In this document: positions 21,483 to 26,981 of the stretch, piece by piece | Layout of the letters: each line of letters begins with the position of its first letter | Numbering within the stretch: the stretch's first letter is position 1 | NCBI RefSeq assembly: GCF_000798815.1 | Contig: NZ_JTLD01000002.1 | Span: 1-64,000 of the forward strand | Direction of reading: 5' to 3' | From: Alistipes sp. ZOR0009 | Lineage (GTDB): Bacteria; Bacteroidota; Bacteroidia; Bacteroidales; ZOR0009 | Length of the DNA stretch: 64,000 bases | Position numbers and translations under genes: made by a program | Notes under the pieces: generated by a model | Seen by the model: only the letters and a program-made list of their open reading frames with translations | What the model was told of the DNA's origin: nothing | Database searches by the model: none

Positions 21483-23279
21483 CTACTTCGCGTTACGTTT
21501 TCTCTGACCTTCGTCGAGAAGTATTTTGCGAAGGCGCATCGAGTTTGGTGTAATTTCCACGTATTCATCTTCTTGGATATACTCCAATGCTTCTTCTAAG
21601 CTGAAAACGATTGGAGGTGCAATCGCGGTTTTGTCGTCCGATCCGCTAGCACGCATGTTTGTAAGCTTTTTCGATTTCGTAACATTGATAACTAAATCGC
21701 CAGCGCGGCTATGCTCTCCAATTACCTGTCCGTTATACACATCTTCGCCTGGAGCGATGAAAAATTTACCCCTATCCTGTAGCTTATTTATAGAGTAGGC
21801 GTAGGCGTTTCCTGTTTCCATGGCGATTAGTGAACCGTTGGTACGCATTTCGATGTCACCCTTATATGGCTCAAAGCCTTTTACTCGGTGGGCTACAATG
21901 GCTTCTCCTTGCGTTGCGGTTAGTAGATTGCTACGTAATCCGATTAGGCCTCGTGAAGGAATTTCAAATTCAAGGTGCGAGCGATCTCCTCGTTGCTCCA
22001 TTTTGAACATCACTCCCTTACGCTTAGTTACAAGCTCAATTGCTCTACCTGCAAATTCTTCAGGAAGATCGATGGTGAGGAACTCCATTGGTTCGCACTT
22101 TTGTCCATTGATTTCTTTAAAGATTACTTTTGGTTGACCAACTTGTAGCTCATAGCCTTCACGGCGCATGGTTTCGATTAGCACGCTAATGTGTAGTACC
22201 CCTCTACCAAATACGATGAAGGAGTCTGCTGTTTCACCATCTTGAACGCGTAGTGCAAGGTTTTTCTCAAGCTCCTTATCTAGGCGGTCCTTCAGGTGGC
22301 GTGAGGTTACAAATTTTCCGTCTTTCCCGAAGAATGGAGAGTCGTTGATTGTAAAGAGCATGCTCATGGTCGGCTCGTCAATAGCAATTGGCTTTAGAGG
22401 CTCTGGATTTTCAAAATCGCAGATGCTGTCGCCGATATCGAATCCATCTATACCCACTAAAGCACAAATTTCTCCGGCGGGAACTTCTTCGACCTTTCTT
22501 TTTTCGAGACCTTCGAATACCATTAAATCTTTGATGCGCGTTTTAACTTGGCTTCCATCTCTTTTTGATAGAATAACGGGCATGTTTGATTTTAGCACAC
22601 CACGGTGTAAACGGCCAATTGCGATACGACCAACATAAGAAGAGTATTCCAAAGAGGTGATTAGCATCTGTGGAGTTCCTTCGTGTGCTTCTGGTGCTGG
22701 TATATTTTCAATTATAGAGTCTAGTAGCGCGGTAATATCTGTGGTTGGATTTTGCCAGTCGGTAGACATCCATCCTTGCTTTGCACTTCCGTATATGGTT
22801 GGGAAGTCTAGCTGATCTTCGGTTGCTTCTAGGTGAAACATAAGATCAAAAACTTCCTCGTGCACTTCGTCTGGACGGCAGTTTGGCTTATCAACCTTAT
22901 TGATTACAACAATAGGTTTTTTTCCTAATGCGAGTGCTTTTTGAAGCACAAAACGAGTTTGTGGCATGGTGCCTTCGAAAGCATCTACCAGAAGAAGAAC
23001 TCCGTCAGCCATATTAAGTACGCGTTCAACCTCTCCACCAAAGTCGGCGTGGCCTGGGGTGTCGATAATGTTAATCTTGTACTCCTTGTACTGAACAGAT
23101 ACGTTCTTTGCAAGAATGGTAATACCTCTTTCGCGCTCTAGATCGTTGTTGTCTAGAATTAAATCGCCAGCTTTCTCGGCATCTCTGAAAAGCTTACCTT
23201 GTAGGATCATCTTATCCACAAGAGTTGTTTTCCCGTGGTCTACGTGAGCGATGATCGCAATGTTCCTAATATGTTGCAT
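21483..23279 (-). CDS. typA: Ribosome-associated GTPase TypA/BipA
   Basis: The translational GTPase has about 598 residues and acts on the ribosome, mainly in 50S assembly and stress or cold adaptation. G1 is [15 protein letters not shown]3 [12 protein letters not shown] and G4 [11 protein letters not shown]-like domains II, III and V follow, with the BipA-specific C-terminal region. A longer frame reaches a TTG at 23300, but that codon lies inside a -7 box (23298-23305). The start is therefore placed at MQHIRNIAI (23279; 23282 also possible), which matches the usual family N-terminus. Transcribed alone. Confidence 0.96.
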
Positions 23280-23297
23280 CATACTAAATTTGGGTTG

Positions 23298-23305
23298 CAA
23301 ATGTA
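23298..23305 (-). promoter_or_regulatory. Candidate -7 box of typA
   Basis: Minus-strand TACATTTG fits TAnnTTTG and is about 20 bases upstream of the chosen start. It excludes the upstream TTG as a start codon. Confidence 0.45.
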
Positions 23306-23404
23306 CGATTAATTACTAGATAAGGTAAGTTGTTAAAAATCATATTACTAAAAATTAGCTTTGAAAAGTGGTTATAATACTCATGCAGATAATGGCATAA
23401 GTTT

Positions 23405-23412
23405 TATATTTG
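23405..23412 (+). promoter_or_regulatory. Candidate -7 box for the riboswitch RNA
   Basis: TATATTTG matches TAnnTTTG and would start transcription around 23418, at the first base pairs of the riboswitch. No -33 TTTG is found at the normal distance. Confidence 0.4.
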
Positions 23413-23414
23413 AA

Positions 23415-23590
23415 CCATCGATGGTTTCTTACGGAATATGCTTTCTAGAAGAATTAAAAGGGAATCAGGTGCAATTCCTGAACAGTTCCCGCTGCTGTAA
23501 TCTCATTAAAAATGTCTAGGCATTCTAGGCCACTGTGAAAACGGGAAGGCGCCTACGACCGAGAGAGTCAGAAGACCTGCCATTCGTTTT
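23415..23590 (+). promoter_or_regulatory. Cobalamin (B12) riboswitch without a sense gene
   Basis: All conserved blocks of the cobalamin aptamer occur in order: a closing stem (CGATGG at 23419 with CCATTCG at 23580), TTAAAAGGGAA, AGGTGCAATTCC, the CCCGC-N2-CTGTAA block, the B12-box core GCCACTG at 23529, GGGAAGGC, and GAGAGTCAGAAGACCTGCC. A small hairpin GCTTT/AAAGC follows at 23598-23614. The usual B12-regulated gene (TonB receptor, cobalamin enzyme or transporter) is absent. The next plus-strand gene starts at 26337, beyond a terminator and a 2.6-kb gene on the opposite strand. It is either a relic of a lost operon or drives a small or antisense RNA. Confidence 0.93.
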
Positions 23591-23660
23591 GTGTAATGCT
23601 TTCGGGATAAAAGCGAGGATCCTTCCACACTCCTCAAATGTATTTCCCCGAAGAAATAAG

Positions 23661-23705
23661 TGCGAGGTAGTGAATTTTGCCATAACGTTCCTACCTCGCA
23701 ATTTT
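23661..23705. terminator. Terminator after the riboswitch, facing the AsmA gene
   Basis: A perfect 10-bp stem TGCGAGGTAG / CTACCTCGCA with a 20-base loop is followed by ATTTTATT on the plus strand. It is well placed to end the riboswitch RNA, and less strongly the AsmA-like gene on the minus strand. Confidence 0.65.
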
Positions 23706-26289
23706 ATTCATCCCAAGTTAGCTTGAACTTGGTGCTATCCTTTTTCTTTTCTAACTTTTTTTCCGCTTTTCGTTCTTCCATAAACGAGGACTGTTGAGGC
23801 TGCTCTACTTTGGCTTTGGGCTTGGCTCCCGCTGCTGTTTTTTCTGCTTCTTTTTTCTCCTCCCAGGTTACCTTAAACGGTTTTGATGTGTTTTTTTGTT
23901 CTACACTAGACGGTTGGTTGGCTTGTGCGGGGGTAATATCCCATCCGCTGCCGCTCCAGTCGTAGCTTACTTTCGATTTTTTGCTATCTCCTTCTACTTT
24001 GAAGTATAGTAAGGTGTTGTTTTCGAAATCGGATTGGCTGATTTGTTTTTTTAGCCCTGTTCGTGCTTTTTTGAAAAGAACGTCTTTCAACGAAAGCTTA
24101 ATTTTGTAGTTGTAGCTTCCATTGAAATTATGATTACCAAGAACTCCTAAGTTGATAGCAGAGGAGGCAACATACATTGCTGGTATATTTATAATGTTGT
24201 TTTTTATGGTAATTTGATTTTTTAAGTTAGCAAACTTTATATGTTCAAGCTCTTTTAAATCAATGAACTTAGAAAGCTTATATGCTGGTTCAAATTTTAT
24301 TAGTTCCCCATTAGTTATGCTTAAATTTGAAACACAATCAACTGAGTTTGGGTCTAAAGCTCCTTTTTCTGAAAAAACACCTCTAAATGCGATATCTCCA
24401 GATCCGATACCTTTAATGTTGCTGCTTGTTAGCGTTTTTTGATTAAAGTTGTTGAACGAAGAGAATAATGTTTCAATATTAATGCTGTCTAGAGTTGCAT
24501 ATAGATTGCTTGTGATTGTTTTATTTTGATTTTGTTCAAGCTTCCCTATTAAATTGATAGATCCTCCTATTGCTTCTGCATTTAGTTGAGATACGGTTAT
24601 AAGCGGTCCTGATTTTTCTATTTTGGCAGATAGATTTTTCATCGGGATACCTCTTAGAATTGCTTGTTTTGATGTTACGTCAATTGATAGGTTTGCAACA
24701 TTTACATCTATTTTATCTGACTTATTACTTGAGTTAAAGTTAATGGCAAGAAGGTTGTCAAAGTTAAGCGTCGATGTGTTGGATGTTACGGATGCAGAAA
24801 ATGGCATAGACTCCATTAGCCCATCATAAAAATTATCTATAGCTACATTGATTTTACCATTAATGGCGTTTGAGGAAAAGTAGAGGTTGGCAGAAGCATC
24901 CGTTGGATTAAACTTTATTTCACCTTTTGTGATGGAGTATAAAGCTCCTTTGAATGGGTATTTTATTTCGCTAAGTTTAAAGTTTCCGTTATTTATCAAG
25001 CGAACTAGACGTAGTGGAGATAGGCTATCAAAATCAATGTTGCCGTCAGCCGTTATGTTTCCGATTATTGTGCCATCAATTTTGTTGGTTGTATCTATTT
25101 TATAAGCATCATTTAAATTGCTTAAAAACAAGTTGAAATTAGTTGATAAGCTAATTAATGGTTTATTAAAATTGCTAAGAGAAAATTTCCCTTCAAAGTC
25201 GCCAAAATTCGAGTTTATTTTAAATGAATCAATTCTTAAAAAAGAGTTTACTATTTGTCCTCTACCGTTTGAGAATGAGCCAACTAAATTTACAGATGCT
25301 ATGCTGTTGTTTTTTAAGATCTCACTTTTCCCTCCTTTAACATCAAAATCTCCATAGAGAAAAGGCCATTGGTTGCTTGCCCAGTATCCTTTGGCTCTTG
25401 CTTTGAAATTGACTTTGCCTTCAACGTCTATTTTTTCTAGAGTTTTGTTGATTTTGGGCACTAGCTCGTTCATTTCCTTTAATGCTAAATCGGTGCCAGA
25501 GGCGGCTATATCTAGATGGATGCTTTTGTTTAGAGAGAAGCCTCCTTCAATATTAATCTTATTATTTTTATAGGTTACTATAAAATCTTTAAAATCATAA
25601 CTTTTAAATGATTTTGATTTTACTTTGCCAGACAGGATAAATTGCTTGTTGCTTATGTAGTTAATGCTGCCAAAGGTAAGTTGATTAACAACTACATCTA
25701 AGCTAGATTTAACTCGAAAATTAGAAGAAGTGAACGTTCCCTCGCTTTTAAATTTTTGAATGCTGTTAACTAATGACATTCTTTTGTTTAGATCGTGTAT
25801 TTTAAGCACTGATTTATCTATTTTTATGCCATCTATTTTCATGCTGACCTTTGAATCGTTATTTTTAGTTCTAAAAATTTTGAAGTTGTTGTTACCCTTT
25901 TTATCTATAAGAATATTGATTTCGCCTTCTTTTAGTATTACCTGTTTAATCGTTATCTTATCCTTGAAAAGATCTAGCACATTTATTTTTAGGCTTAGCG
26001 TTCCTGCTTTTAGAAGTGTCTTAGTATTTCTTAAATGGTTAAAATCAGAAATGTTAATATCTTTTGTCGACTCTATATTTACGTCATTTAGTTTTATAGA
26101 GGCGTAGGGGAAATATCTTACTAAGGAGAATGAGGCATCTCCAATGGTGATTCGGCTTCTCAAATCTTTTCGAATTCCTTGCATTGCTGCTGAGATAATT
26201 GAATCCTGAAAGATAAAGCTGATAAGAGTAAGTGAAAAAAATACGCTTATCACCGAAAAAAAAACGATTCTAAAGACTTTCCTTTTCAT
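23704..26289 (-). CDS. AsmA-family protein
   Basis: This 861-residue envelope protein has one N-terminal membrane helix (about 7-28) and then a long beta-rich periplasmic region typical of AsmA/TamB-like proteins. The C-terminal AsmA_2-like part lies around 570-760 (SNIKGIGSGDIAFRG, then a segment on membrane-associated sums). Such proteins are thought to help lipid movement or outer-membrane biogenesis. The last 100 residues are low-complexity, Lys/Glu-rich, and carry the short motif FKVTWEE and its near copy FKLTWDE at the very end. It is divergent from the rhomboid gene with only 47 bases between them and converges on the riboswitch. Specific cargo is unknown. Confidence 0.85.
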   Translation of the reverse strand: MKRKVFRIVFFSVISVFFSLTLISFIFQDSIISAAMQGIRKDLRSRITIGDASFSLVRYFPYASIKLNDVNIESTKDINISDFNHLRNTKTLLKAGTLSLKINVLDLFKDKITIKQVILKEGEINILIDKKGNNNFKIFRTKNNDSKVSMKIDGIKIDKSVLKIHDLNKRMSLVNSIQKFKSEGTFTSSNFRVKSSLDVVVNQLTFGSINYISNKQFILSGKVKSKSFKSYDFKDFIVTYKNNKINIEGGFSLNKSIHLDIAASGTDLALKEMNELVPKINKTLEKIDVEGKVNFKARAKGYWASNQWPFLYGDFDVKGGKSEILKNNSIASVNLVGSFSNGRGQIVNSFLRIDSFKINSNFGDFEGKFSLSNFNKPLISLSTNFNLFLSNLNDAYKIDTTNKIDGTIIGNITADGNIDFDSLSPLRLVRLINNGNFKLSEIKYPFKGALYSITKGEIKFNPTDASANLYFSSNAINGKINVAIDNFYDGLMESMPFSASVTSNTSTLNFDNLLAINFNSSNKSDKIDVNVANLSIDVTSKQAILRGIPMKNLSAKIEKSGPLITVSQLNAEAIGGSINLIGKLEQNQNKTITSNLYATLDSINIETLFSSFNNFNQKTLTSSNIKGIGSGDIAFRGVFSEKGALDPNSVDCVSNLSITNGELIKFEPAYKLSKFIDLKELEHIKFANLKNQITIKNNIINIPAMYVASSAINLGVLGNHNFNGSYNYKIKLSLKDVLFKKARTGLKKQISQSDFENNTLLYFKVEGDSKKSKVSYDWSGSGWDITPAQANQPSSVEQKNTSKPFKVTWEEKKEAEKTAAGAKPKAKVEQPQQSSFMEERKAEKKLEKKKDSTKFKLTWDE

Positions 26290-26336: not shown

Positions 26337-26981
26337 TTGCCAATGGAATGGAGAAAGCTAAAGATAGCCCTTTTTACAACCATATATATGCTAGCGATAG
26401 TTTGGCTTACATTTTTTATGCAAATCATGCTATCTGTTGATATAGATAAGGTTGCTATTTTCCCCAGAGAATGGGTTTGTGCGGCTAATTTTTTAATCTC
26501 TCCTCTATTTCATGTTGATGTGGATCATATTGTAAATAATAGTATTGCATTTTTAATTCTTTCTTTAGCATGCTTTTATTTTTATGGAGGAATTGCACTT
26601 TCTGTGATTTTGGGAGGGATTGGTTCTGGTGTTTTTGTTTGGTTATTTGGAAGAGAAGCGTATCATGTAGGATTAAGTGGGGTGTGCTATTCGTTGGCTT
26701 CCTTTTTATTTGTGAGTGGTATCATTCGGAAAAATATTTCTTTACGGTCAATATCACTGTTGATTGTCTTTTGGCAAGGGGGCTTAGTTTGGGGGATGAT
26801 TCCATCGTTGAGTGAACCTCTTAATATCTCATGGGAAGGGCACTTATTCGGGGCAATGGTGGGGTTTGTTATGGCTTTTATTTGGAGAAAAAGGGGGCCT
26901 AAGGATGATCCAGAAATTGAGGATGAGCGTCAGGAGGACTATCTAGATTTTGATGAACAGTTAGAAGACGACCGATCATAA
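26337..26981 (+). CDS. Rhomboid-family intramembrane serine protease
   Basis: The 214-residue protein has about six membrane helices. The catalytic dyad is visible as Ser114 in GLSGVCYSL and His169 in WEGHLFGAMVG, with the conserved Asn of HIVNNS (67-68) in the oxyanion region. Rhomboids cut transmembrane substrates within the lipid bilayer; the substrate is unknown. The cytoplasmic tail after residue 185 is charged and acidic (DDPEIEDERQEDYLDFDEQ), an addition to the core fold. The start is close to the divergent AsmA gene, so the two may share a promoter region. An alternative start is Met3. Confidence 0.9.
   Translation: MPMEWRKLKIALFTTIYMLAIVWLTFFMQIMLSVDIDKVAIFPREWVCAANFLISPLFHVDVDHIVNNSIAFLILSLACFYFYGGIALSVILGGIGSGVFVWLFGREAYHVGLSGVCYSLASFLFVSGIIRKNISLRSISLLIVFWQGGLVWGMIPSLSEPLNISWEGHLFGAMVGFVMAFIWRKRGPKDDPEIEDERQEDYLDFDEQLEDDRS

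Follow-up and report, generated by a model that had tools for sequence, protein, structure and literature searches.

A conserved cobalamin riboswitch without a sense gene beside typA in Bacteroidales, a putative B12-sensing noncoding RNA

The window analysed here, a stretch of 64,000 nucleotides (64 kb), comes from a 4.45-Mb genome in 125 contigs (genome code G000). Between typA and an AsmA-like gene it carries a cobalamin riboswitch with no sense gene behind it, hereafter the orphan, and the features of the locus are as follows.

21483-23300, minus strand: typA/bipA (TIGR01394, 899 bits), the divergent neighbour of the riboswitch in 3/3 species
23326-23361, no strand assigned: 36-nt block that separates typA from the riboswitch, with the same sequence in 3/3 species (alignment)
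23405-23412, plus strand: -7 promoter box TATATTTG (TAnnTTTG), beginning at the same position as the Rfam match
23405-23598, plus strand: cobalamin riboswitch aptamer (RF00174), core blocks all intact
23598-23614, plus strand: P13/L13 hairpin GCTTT-CGGGATA-AAAGC, read from the sequence; similar elements lie behind gene-linked riboswitches of the genus
23615-23635, plus strand: hairpin GAGGA/TCCTC with a pyrimidine-rich loop; TCCTTCCACACTCCTC invariant in three species
23630-23652, plus strand: 3' switch strand CTCCTCA-AATG-TATTTCCCCGAA, of which CCCGAA pairs with TTCGGG in cis
23661-23708, plus strand: terminator hairpin of 10 bp with T-run; two-sided changes at two pair positions
23704-26289, minus strand: AsmA-like gene, convergent with the riboswitch; replaced by frr in both congeners

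A preliminary description of this DNA had recognised every conserved cobalamin block and had called for a covariance search; that search returned a full RF00174 match on the plus strand at 23405-23598 (95.4 bits, E 1.7e-22, gathering cut-off 31.5), with model positions 1-189 all covered. The candidate -7 box that had been placed directly before the aptamer is TATATTTG, and it occupies the same position in the orphans of all three species compared below. TAnnTTTG is the -7 consensus as quoted in PMC7366714, and an exact TAnnTTTG at most 10 nt from the Rfam 5' edge is present in 3/3 orphans and in 10/19 gene-linked riboswitches of the three genus genomes, the candidate promoter of the orphans being called on the -7 box. 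The TypA protein of the window has 72-81% identity to its 80 best matches in a named collection; their titles are Bacteroidales or other Bacteroidota, and genomes nearer to that of the window may be absent from the collection. The 36-nt block at 23326-23361 is A/T-rich and is probably part of the promoter region of typA and/or the riboswitch. On the minus strand, a TACATTTGC box (23298-23306) lies between this block and the likely ATG of typA, and the listed TTG start of typA overlaps it.

The opposing gene has DUF748 as its sole Pfam match, below threshold (27.4 bits, cut-off 50), and ends at 23704 on the minus strand, its stop codon being overlapped by the tail of the terminator. That no plus-strand gene follows the aptamer holds: the next plausible sense start comes only at 26337, past the AsmA-like gene (a 115-aa plus-strand ORF inside the latter was disregarded in naming the next sense gene). 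The genome has 10 cobalamin riboswitches, and that of the window is the only one without a sense gene. The nine others all lie ahead of sense genes, which encode NrdD, three TonB-dependent receptors, a periplasmic binding protein, a CobQ-like synthase, a carboxyl transferase (whose start is 325 nt beyond its riboswitch), CbiK and a BNR-domain protein. In one of these (G000:C16:53147-53324), the riboswitch stands ahead of nrdD, the anaerobic class III ribonucleotide reductase; the same arrangement apparently occurs in the congener G002 (L044), and NrdD-like starts were read behind riboswitches in several other families, so that B12 seems to control a B12-independent reductase. The riboswitch leader of cbiK (G000:C52:28899-29106) is identical to its counterpart in G002 (G002:C18:11367-11574) over 170 nt despite about 39% identity at four-fold sites, which probably reflects a recent horizontal transfer. 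Low-complexity repetitive frames (AAELQRPNPHG-like and TNPNDAVHQPK-like) were seen in all three genus genomes (L055:900-2240, L053:1098-1457, L064:2752-3997), and are probably tandem DNA repeats.

Behind the aptamer, the two competing pairings proposed in the preliminary description are both present in the sequence. P13 has the arms GCTTT (23598-23602) and AAAGC (23610-23614), and its loop L13 (CGGGA) could pair with L5 (UUCCCG) in a predicted kissing loop, for which 5 bp are possible in the window and 4 bp in the congeners as read from the sequence. The rival pairing joins TTCGGG (23601-23606) to CCCGAA (23647-23652). In the predicted folds the two are mutually exclusive in 3/3 species, and TTCGGG/CCCGAA is favoured over P13 by 3.6-4.4 kcal/mol with the kissing loop left out of the calculation. 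Both predicted states keep the terminator and leave the pyrimidine-rich loop open; the mean unpaired probability of this loop, TCCTTCCACAC, is 0.77-0.93, and TCCTTCCACACTCCTC has one exact occurrence in each of the three genus genomes. The 10-bp terminator-like hairpin that had been described just before an opposite-strand stop codon likewise exists, with arms at 23661-23670 and 23691-23700 followed by TTTTATT and with the AsmA-like gene ending at 23704. Its T-run is weak, yet the hairpin fold is nonetheless clear in the predictions; a simple terminator scan, in which only loops of 3-8 were permitted, did not list it. This layout is that of a platform present in several copies in the genus, namely P13/L13 (with a loop CGGGA/U complementing L5), then a hairpin, then an anti-L13 strand. 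The orphan has the aptamer family and P13/L13 in common with the gene-linked copies in these genomes (nrdD, TonB receptors, cobQ, cbiK), and often the position of the -7 box; several of those copies also have the hairpin followed by the anti-L13 strand. In contrast to these, which lead into a start codon, the orphan ends in a terminator.

Two genomes of the same genus, G001 and G002, were found among the relatives. Both have an orthologous riboswitch (92.7 and 95.1 bits with RF00174) divergent from typA and without a sense gene, facing frr rather than an AsmA-like gene. In the window's genome frr lies on the same contig near position 81,900, which indicates that a rearrangement exchanged the convergent gene without parting the riboswitch from typA. 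The refuting case named in the preliminary description, a B12 gene recently deleted here, was not seen in either congener when the loci were compared. The promoter box, aptamer, P13/L13, pyrimidine-loop hairpin, CCCGAA strand and terminator are conserved in the three species. From GCTTT to CCCGAA, the ungapped identity of the core is 48/53 between the window and G001, 47/53 between the window and G002 and 52/53 between the congeners. In the same order, the identity of the aptamers is 0.77, 0.76 and 0.88, and that of four-fold-degenerate sites pooled from eight genes 0.391, 0.386 and 0.542. The switch core is the most conserved stretch between the window and G001 (0.91 ungapped identity), and the three-species alignment shows that it tolerates a 2-nt indel; the terminator part reaches 0.63 in an alignment that misplaces one of its arms. 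For this reason terminator pairs were counted by pairing the arms directly, with alignments A1, A2 and A4 excluded, since the window's 3' terminator arm is misplaced in them. The first pair is T-A in the window, G-U in G001 and A-U in G002, and the second G-C, A-U and G-U, so that both outer pairs are kept. The aptamer core had been called undecayed, which was taken to speak against a dead relic, and this reading gains from the 48/53 core identity set against 39% at four-fold sites and from the compensated terminator. The nrdD and cobQ platforms are conserved to about the same degree as that of the orphan. Conservation of this kind shows, as far as sequence comparison goes, a working switch and not which output it has; with no gene behind a conserved switch, the RNA itself is the likely output.

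No reading frame common to the three species runs across the orphan RNA, which is probably noncoding. ATG frames of 27 and 28 codons follow the aptamer in G001 and G002, and they would be what a leader of an unannotated small protein requires; the two frames differ, however, and in the window both are stopped ahead of the conserved part, one having no later start and the other only a 10-codon ATG frame. Together with the 2-nt indel tolerated in the core, this makes a small protein scarcely credible, and the candidate was dropped because the frames differ between species.

At the sequence level, a stand-alone unit (riboswitch, no sense gene, own terminator) is thus found in three species, where the -7 box, intact aptamer, L13 switch, 3' module and terminator are all kept gene-less. 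To this extent there is good support for the earlier suggestion that a small RNA of about 290 nt, terminated and under B12 control, arises here, the whole unit being conserved gene-less in two congeners.

Under strict filters, a covariance model of the 3' module matched 3/393 genomes of the order, all of this genus, and 1/395 genomes of the phylum, namely the window's own. The exact 3' motif had no occurrence in a genome-contig collection from which near genomes may be absent, and an Rfam search with the 3' module gave chance-level matches only and no known RNA family. No riboswitch was found in the upstream flanks of the best 80 typA loci outside the genus (flanks of up to 4 kb, three loci with less than 500 bases), using a pattern that found 12/12 test loci and 21/22 genus riboswitches (L044 was missed); at one typA locus (L152) a riboswitch lies downstream on the other strand. 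In a survey of other families, 36 of 38 genomes had a match; it took in 65 of 67 extra-genus matches, a contig-end match (G013) and a partial match below cut-off (G017) being omitted, and about 3/65 riboswitch loci (L214, L220 and L268) lacked a sense gene; locus L274, with its aptamer end mislocated, was not counted. L214 (G031:C22:17487-17680) is a cobalamin riboswitch with no plausible sense gene close by, as is L268 (G017:C4:387998-388175), where a terminator-like hairpin precedes a convergent gene.

The remaining locus, L220 (G027:C78:78041-78241; 106.8 bits), has a counterpart. A DNA search with its aptamer end and 3' part matched 25/119 genomes of the family, the query included. In the 24 others the match was to the aptamer end, and one of them, G425, which belongs to the genus of G027, had a separate match to the hairpin stretch as well. 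In G425 the hairpin match lies behind a full riboswitch (L278, contig C1, 1689-1886 within the locus, minus strand; 97.6 bits) that again has no sense gene; a 136-codon frame starts within the hairpin, antiparallel to a gene of 453 codons. All 9/9 pairs of the terminator-like hairpin form at both loci despite one C-G/T-A and one T-A/C-G exchange, and the 12-base loop, CTAAGTGATTAG, does not differ; between the convergent genes there is no BLAST similarity. There thus appears to be a second putative gene-less riboswitch RNA, conserved between two congeneric species that belong to another family of the order. It resembles the orphan of the window in having a cobalamin riboswitch, no sense gene, differing convergent neighbours and a terminator-like hairpin with two-sided changes, and differs from it in its 3' sequence and loop, with which independent origin and great divergence are both compatible.

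In the search for targets, an 11-nt stretch of the loop, with G-U allowed at three positions, had 24 complementary sites in the three genus genomes; three belong to the gene of the RNA itself. The 21 non-self sites comprise 18 that fall within reading frames of 80-100 codons or more, or on the strand opposite to them, and three (L164, L178 and L179) with neither placement, and none in these genomes is placed shortly before a plausible start; one site (L175) has a start at +51, but inside a longer frame. Two sets of sites recur in all three: the first lies some 1 kb into a permease-like frame and the second opposite a HAD-like frame, labels given by reading of the frames. The complement of the terminator loop, GTTATGGCA, occurs at 117 sites against 160 for the reversed control in the three genomes and, on these counts alone, is not enriched. 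In 27 tests of leaders against shuffles there was no consistent match; the lowest values (1/100 shuffles each), for typA of the window's genome and for btuF of G002, were not repeated in the other genomes (79 and 13 per 100 shuffles for typA, 27 and 5 for btuF). Overall, no target conserved across the three species emerged from these searches.

One leader of the same genome stands out. The 3' switch strand at 23630-23652 is complementary to L005, the leader of a TonB/DUF5074 operon (G000:C46, TTCGGGGAAATAAAGCTGAGGAG) that probably serves B12 uptake, in runs of 12 and 7 nt that are collinear round a 4x4 internal loop (20/23 positions). Among 100 strand pairs from the ten riboswitches of the genome this pairing is the best (-31.8 kcal/mol), ahead of a runner-up at -25.0 kcal/mol; in cis, the orphan's own pair reaches -16.1 kcal/mol. 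The gain on dimer formation is -13.1, where eight other leaders gave -3.0 to -9.4. The energy was reached in 0/2000 shuffles of L005 beyond TTCGGG, and in 10/2000 when only its spacers were shuffled and the shared motifs held, which amounts to about 4.5% after nine targets; with a shorter orphan stretch the figure is just 4/100. L005 is also the orphan's second-closest aptamer paralogue in the genome (0.63, after L006 with 0.67), and part of the match is owed to the shared descent of the two riboswitches. The orphans of G001 and G002 pair with L005 more weakly (-24.2 and -23.2) than that of the window, and neither has an outlying partner among its own riboswitches, the best trans pair being -15.6 in G001 (four other riboswitches) and -13.9 in G002 (five riboswitches, plus L044 at -13.1); a clear L005 orthologue was not seen among the riboswitch copies of these genomes. 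We accordingly treat L005 as a lead, a post hoc and unconserved candidate target.

From these elements we propose a model. The RNA would start near 23418 and end near 23707, giving about 290 nt. Without B12, TTCGGG would pair with CCCGAA; with B12, L5 would take L13 in the kissing loop, P13 would form and the strand CUCCUCA..UAUUUCCCCGAA would be at least partly freed, the pyrimidine-rich loop AUCCUUCCACAC being predicted open in either case. In trans, the RNA would most likely act on mRNAs of the B12 regulon, with which either its loop or the freed strand would base-pair. In a more specific version, which we regard as a long shot, the freed strand CUCCUCA..UAUUUCCCCGAA of the B12-bound orphan would pair over some 19-20 bp with the L13 hairpin of L005 and override its kissing-loop switch, and stand-alone B12-riboswitch RNAs may recur in Bacteroidales.

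Several other outputs can be weighed against this model. The preliminary description had considered an antisense RNA against the AsmA-like mRNA. The convergent geometry is suggestive of read-through into the opposing gene, and PMC8079631 describes a B12-riboswitch antisense RNA, AspocR, in Listeria; however, the opposing gene varies by species, being frr in both congeners, and the terminator ahead of it is kept and compensated. A candidate antiterminator, CACTCCTC with GAGG-AGTG, fits in the window and G002 and is mismatched in G001, where the terminator is compensated. Read-through antisense is therefore very unlikely, and both the antisense RNA to the AsmA-like gene (neighbour not conserved) and riboswitch-controlled antitermination (antiterminator mismatched in G001) were set aside. 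A device acting in cis only, whether a B12-dependent transcript that shields the promoter region of typA or one that supplies the convergent gene with a bidirectional terminator, would agree with the adjacency to typA that survives rearrangement and with the overlap of the terminator tail and the stop codon of the AsmA-like gene. We consider it improbable, given that conservation is strongest in the switch core (0.91) and not in the terminator part (0.63, with one arm misplaced in the alignment) and that an intact aptamer and L13 switch are needless for such a role.

Alternatively, the riboswitch could be the leader of an ancestral B12 gene lost before the genus split, persisting by inertia. 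Its platform has the layout of gene-linked riboswitches, and other gene-less riboswitches, which may or may not be conserved, do exist (L214, L268). Nevertheless, inertia sits poorly with a core 48/53 identical against 39% at four-fold sites and with a promoter box and terminator that are kept, the latter through compensating changes, as it likewise is in the comparable pair L220 and L278; a relic is thus rather improbable. The 3' module might instead sequester a protein, in the manner of EutX and Rli55, or the RNA might buffer corrinoids, with no base-paired mRNA target in either case. The order of aptamer, 3' element and terminator matches those RNAs and the searches run yielded no conserved mRNA target, but the predicted folds lack ANTAR-type dual hexaloop hairpins, and we hold this option to be unlikely while keeping it in sight. 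The reading we prefer, with a probability of roughly 0.53, is a noncoding RNA gene that stands alone and has a B12 riboswitch for its 5' domain, a trans regulator whose shape (or amount) would report B12. The comparisons point to a conserved, putatively B12-sensing noncoding RNA of about 290 nt, and speak against both a recent relic and antisense action on the AsmA-like gene.

EutX of Enterococcus faecalis and Rli55 of Listeria are the closest known kind. ANTAR sites are dual hexaloop hairpins, and the EutX-type dual hairpin sequesters EutV; a pair of six-base loops was not found in the predicted folds of the orphan. ANTAR-domain proteins were found in 0/3 genus genomes, yet also in 0/14 control genomes. 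Like EutX and Rli55 as presented in PMC5821096 and PMC8079631, the orphan would be a free-standing RNA with a 5' cobalamin aptamer, a 3' module and a terminator, and according to the same texts the 3' module of those RNAs is regulatory and acts away from any sense gene. Unlike them, it shows no ANTAR-type dual hairpin in the predicted folds, carries an L13/anti-L13 switch and not a terminator-type hairpin directly after the aptamer, neighbours typA and an AsmA-like gene, and belongs to Bacteroidales and not Firmicutes. With AspocR, which is antisense to pocR (PMC8079631), it would share a cobalamin-riboswitch transcript that runs against a neighbouring gene, whereas overlap with or control of that gene is not apparent, since the neighbour varies and a conserved terminator lies ahead of it. 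Trans base-pairing, proposed here for the orphan, is known from SreA of Listeria, a SAM riboswitch that pairs with prfA mRNA (PMC8079631); SreA, however, has a second role as the cis control of the operon behind it, while the orphan has no cis gene and another ligand and aptamer. Cobalamin riboswitches were transcriptionally active in 10/15 Gram-negative taxa according to PMC12121620. In the literature found, B12-riboswitch small RNAs are described for Firmicutes only (PMC8079631 and PMC5821096), and the literature searched, mostly without subscription papers, contained no recognisable description of a free-standing cobalamin-riboswitch RNA from Bacteroidota.

By its predicted architecture, the orphan is a conserved, self-contained B12-sensing noncoding RNA gene of the riboswitch-sRNA kind. 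Comparing the expression platform and terminator across congeners makes a working orphan riboswitch separable from a relic, and the orphan RNA would offer a small, testable system. A conserved case in Bacteroidales, together with a second in another family, would show that this design exists with a different switch, the L13/anti-L13 pair.
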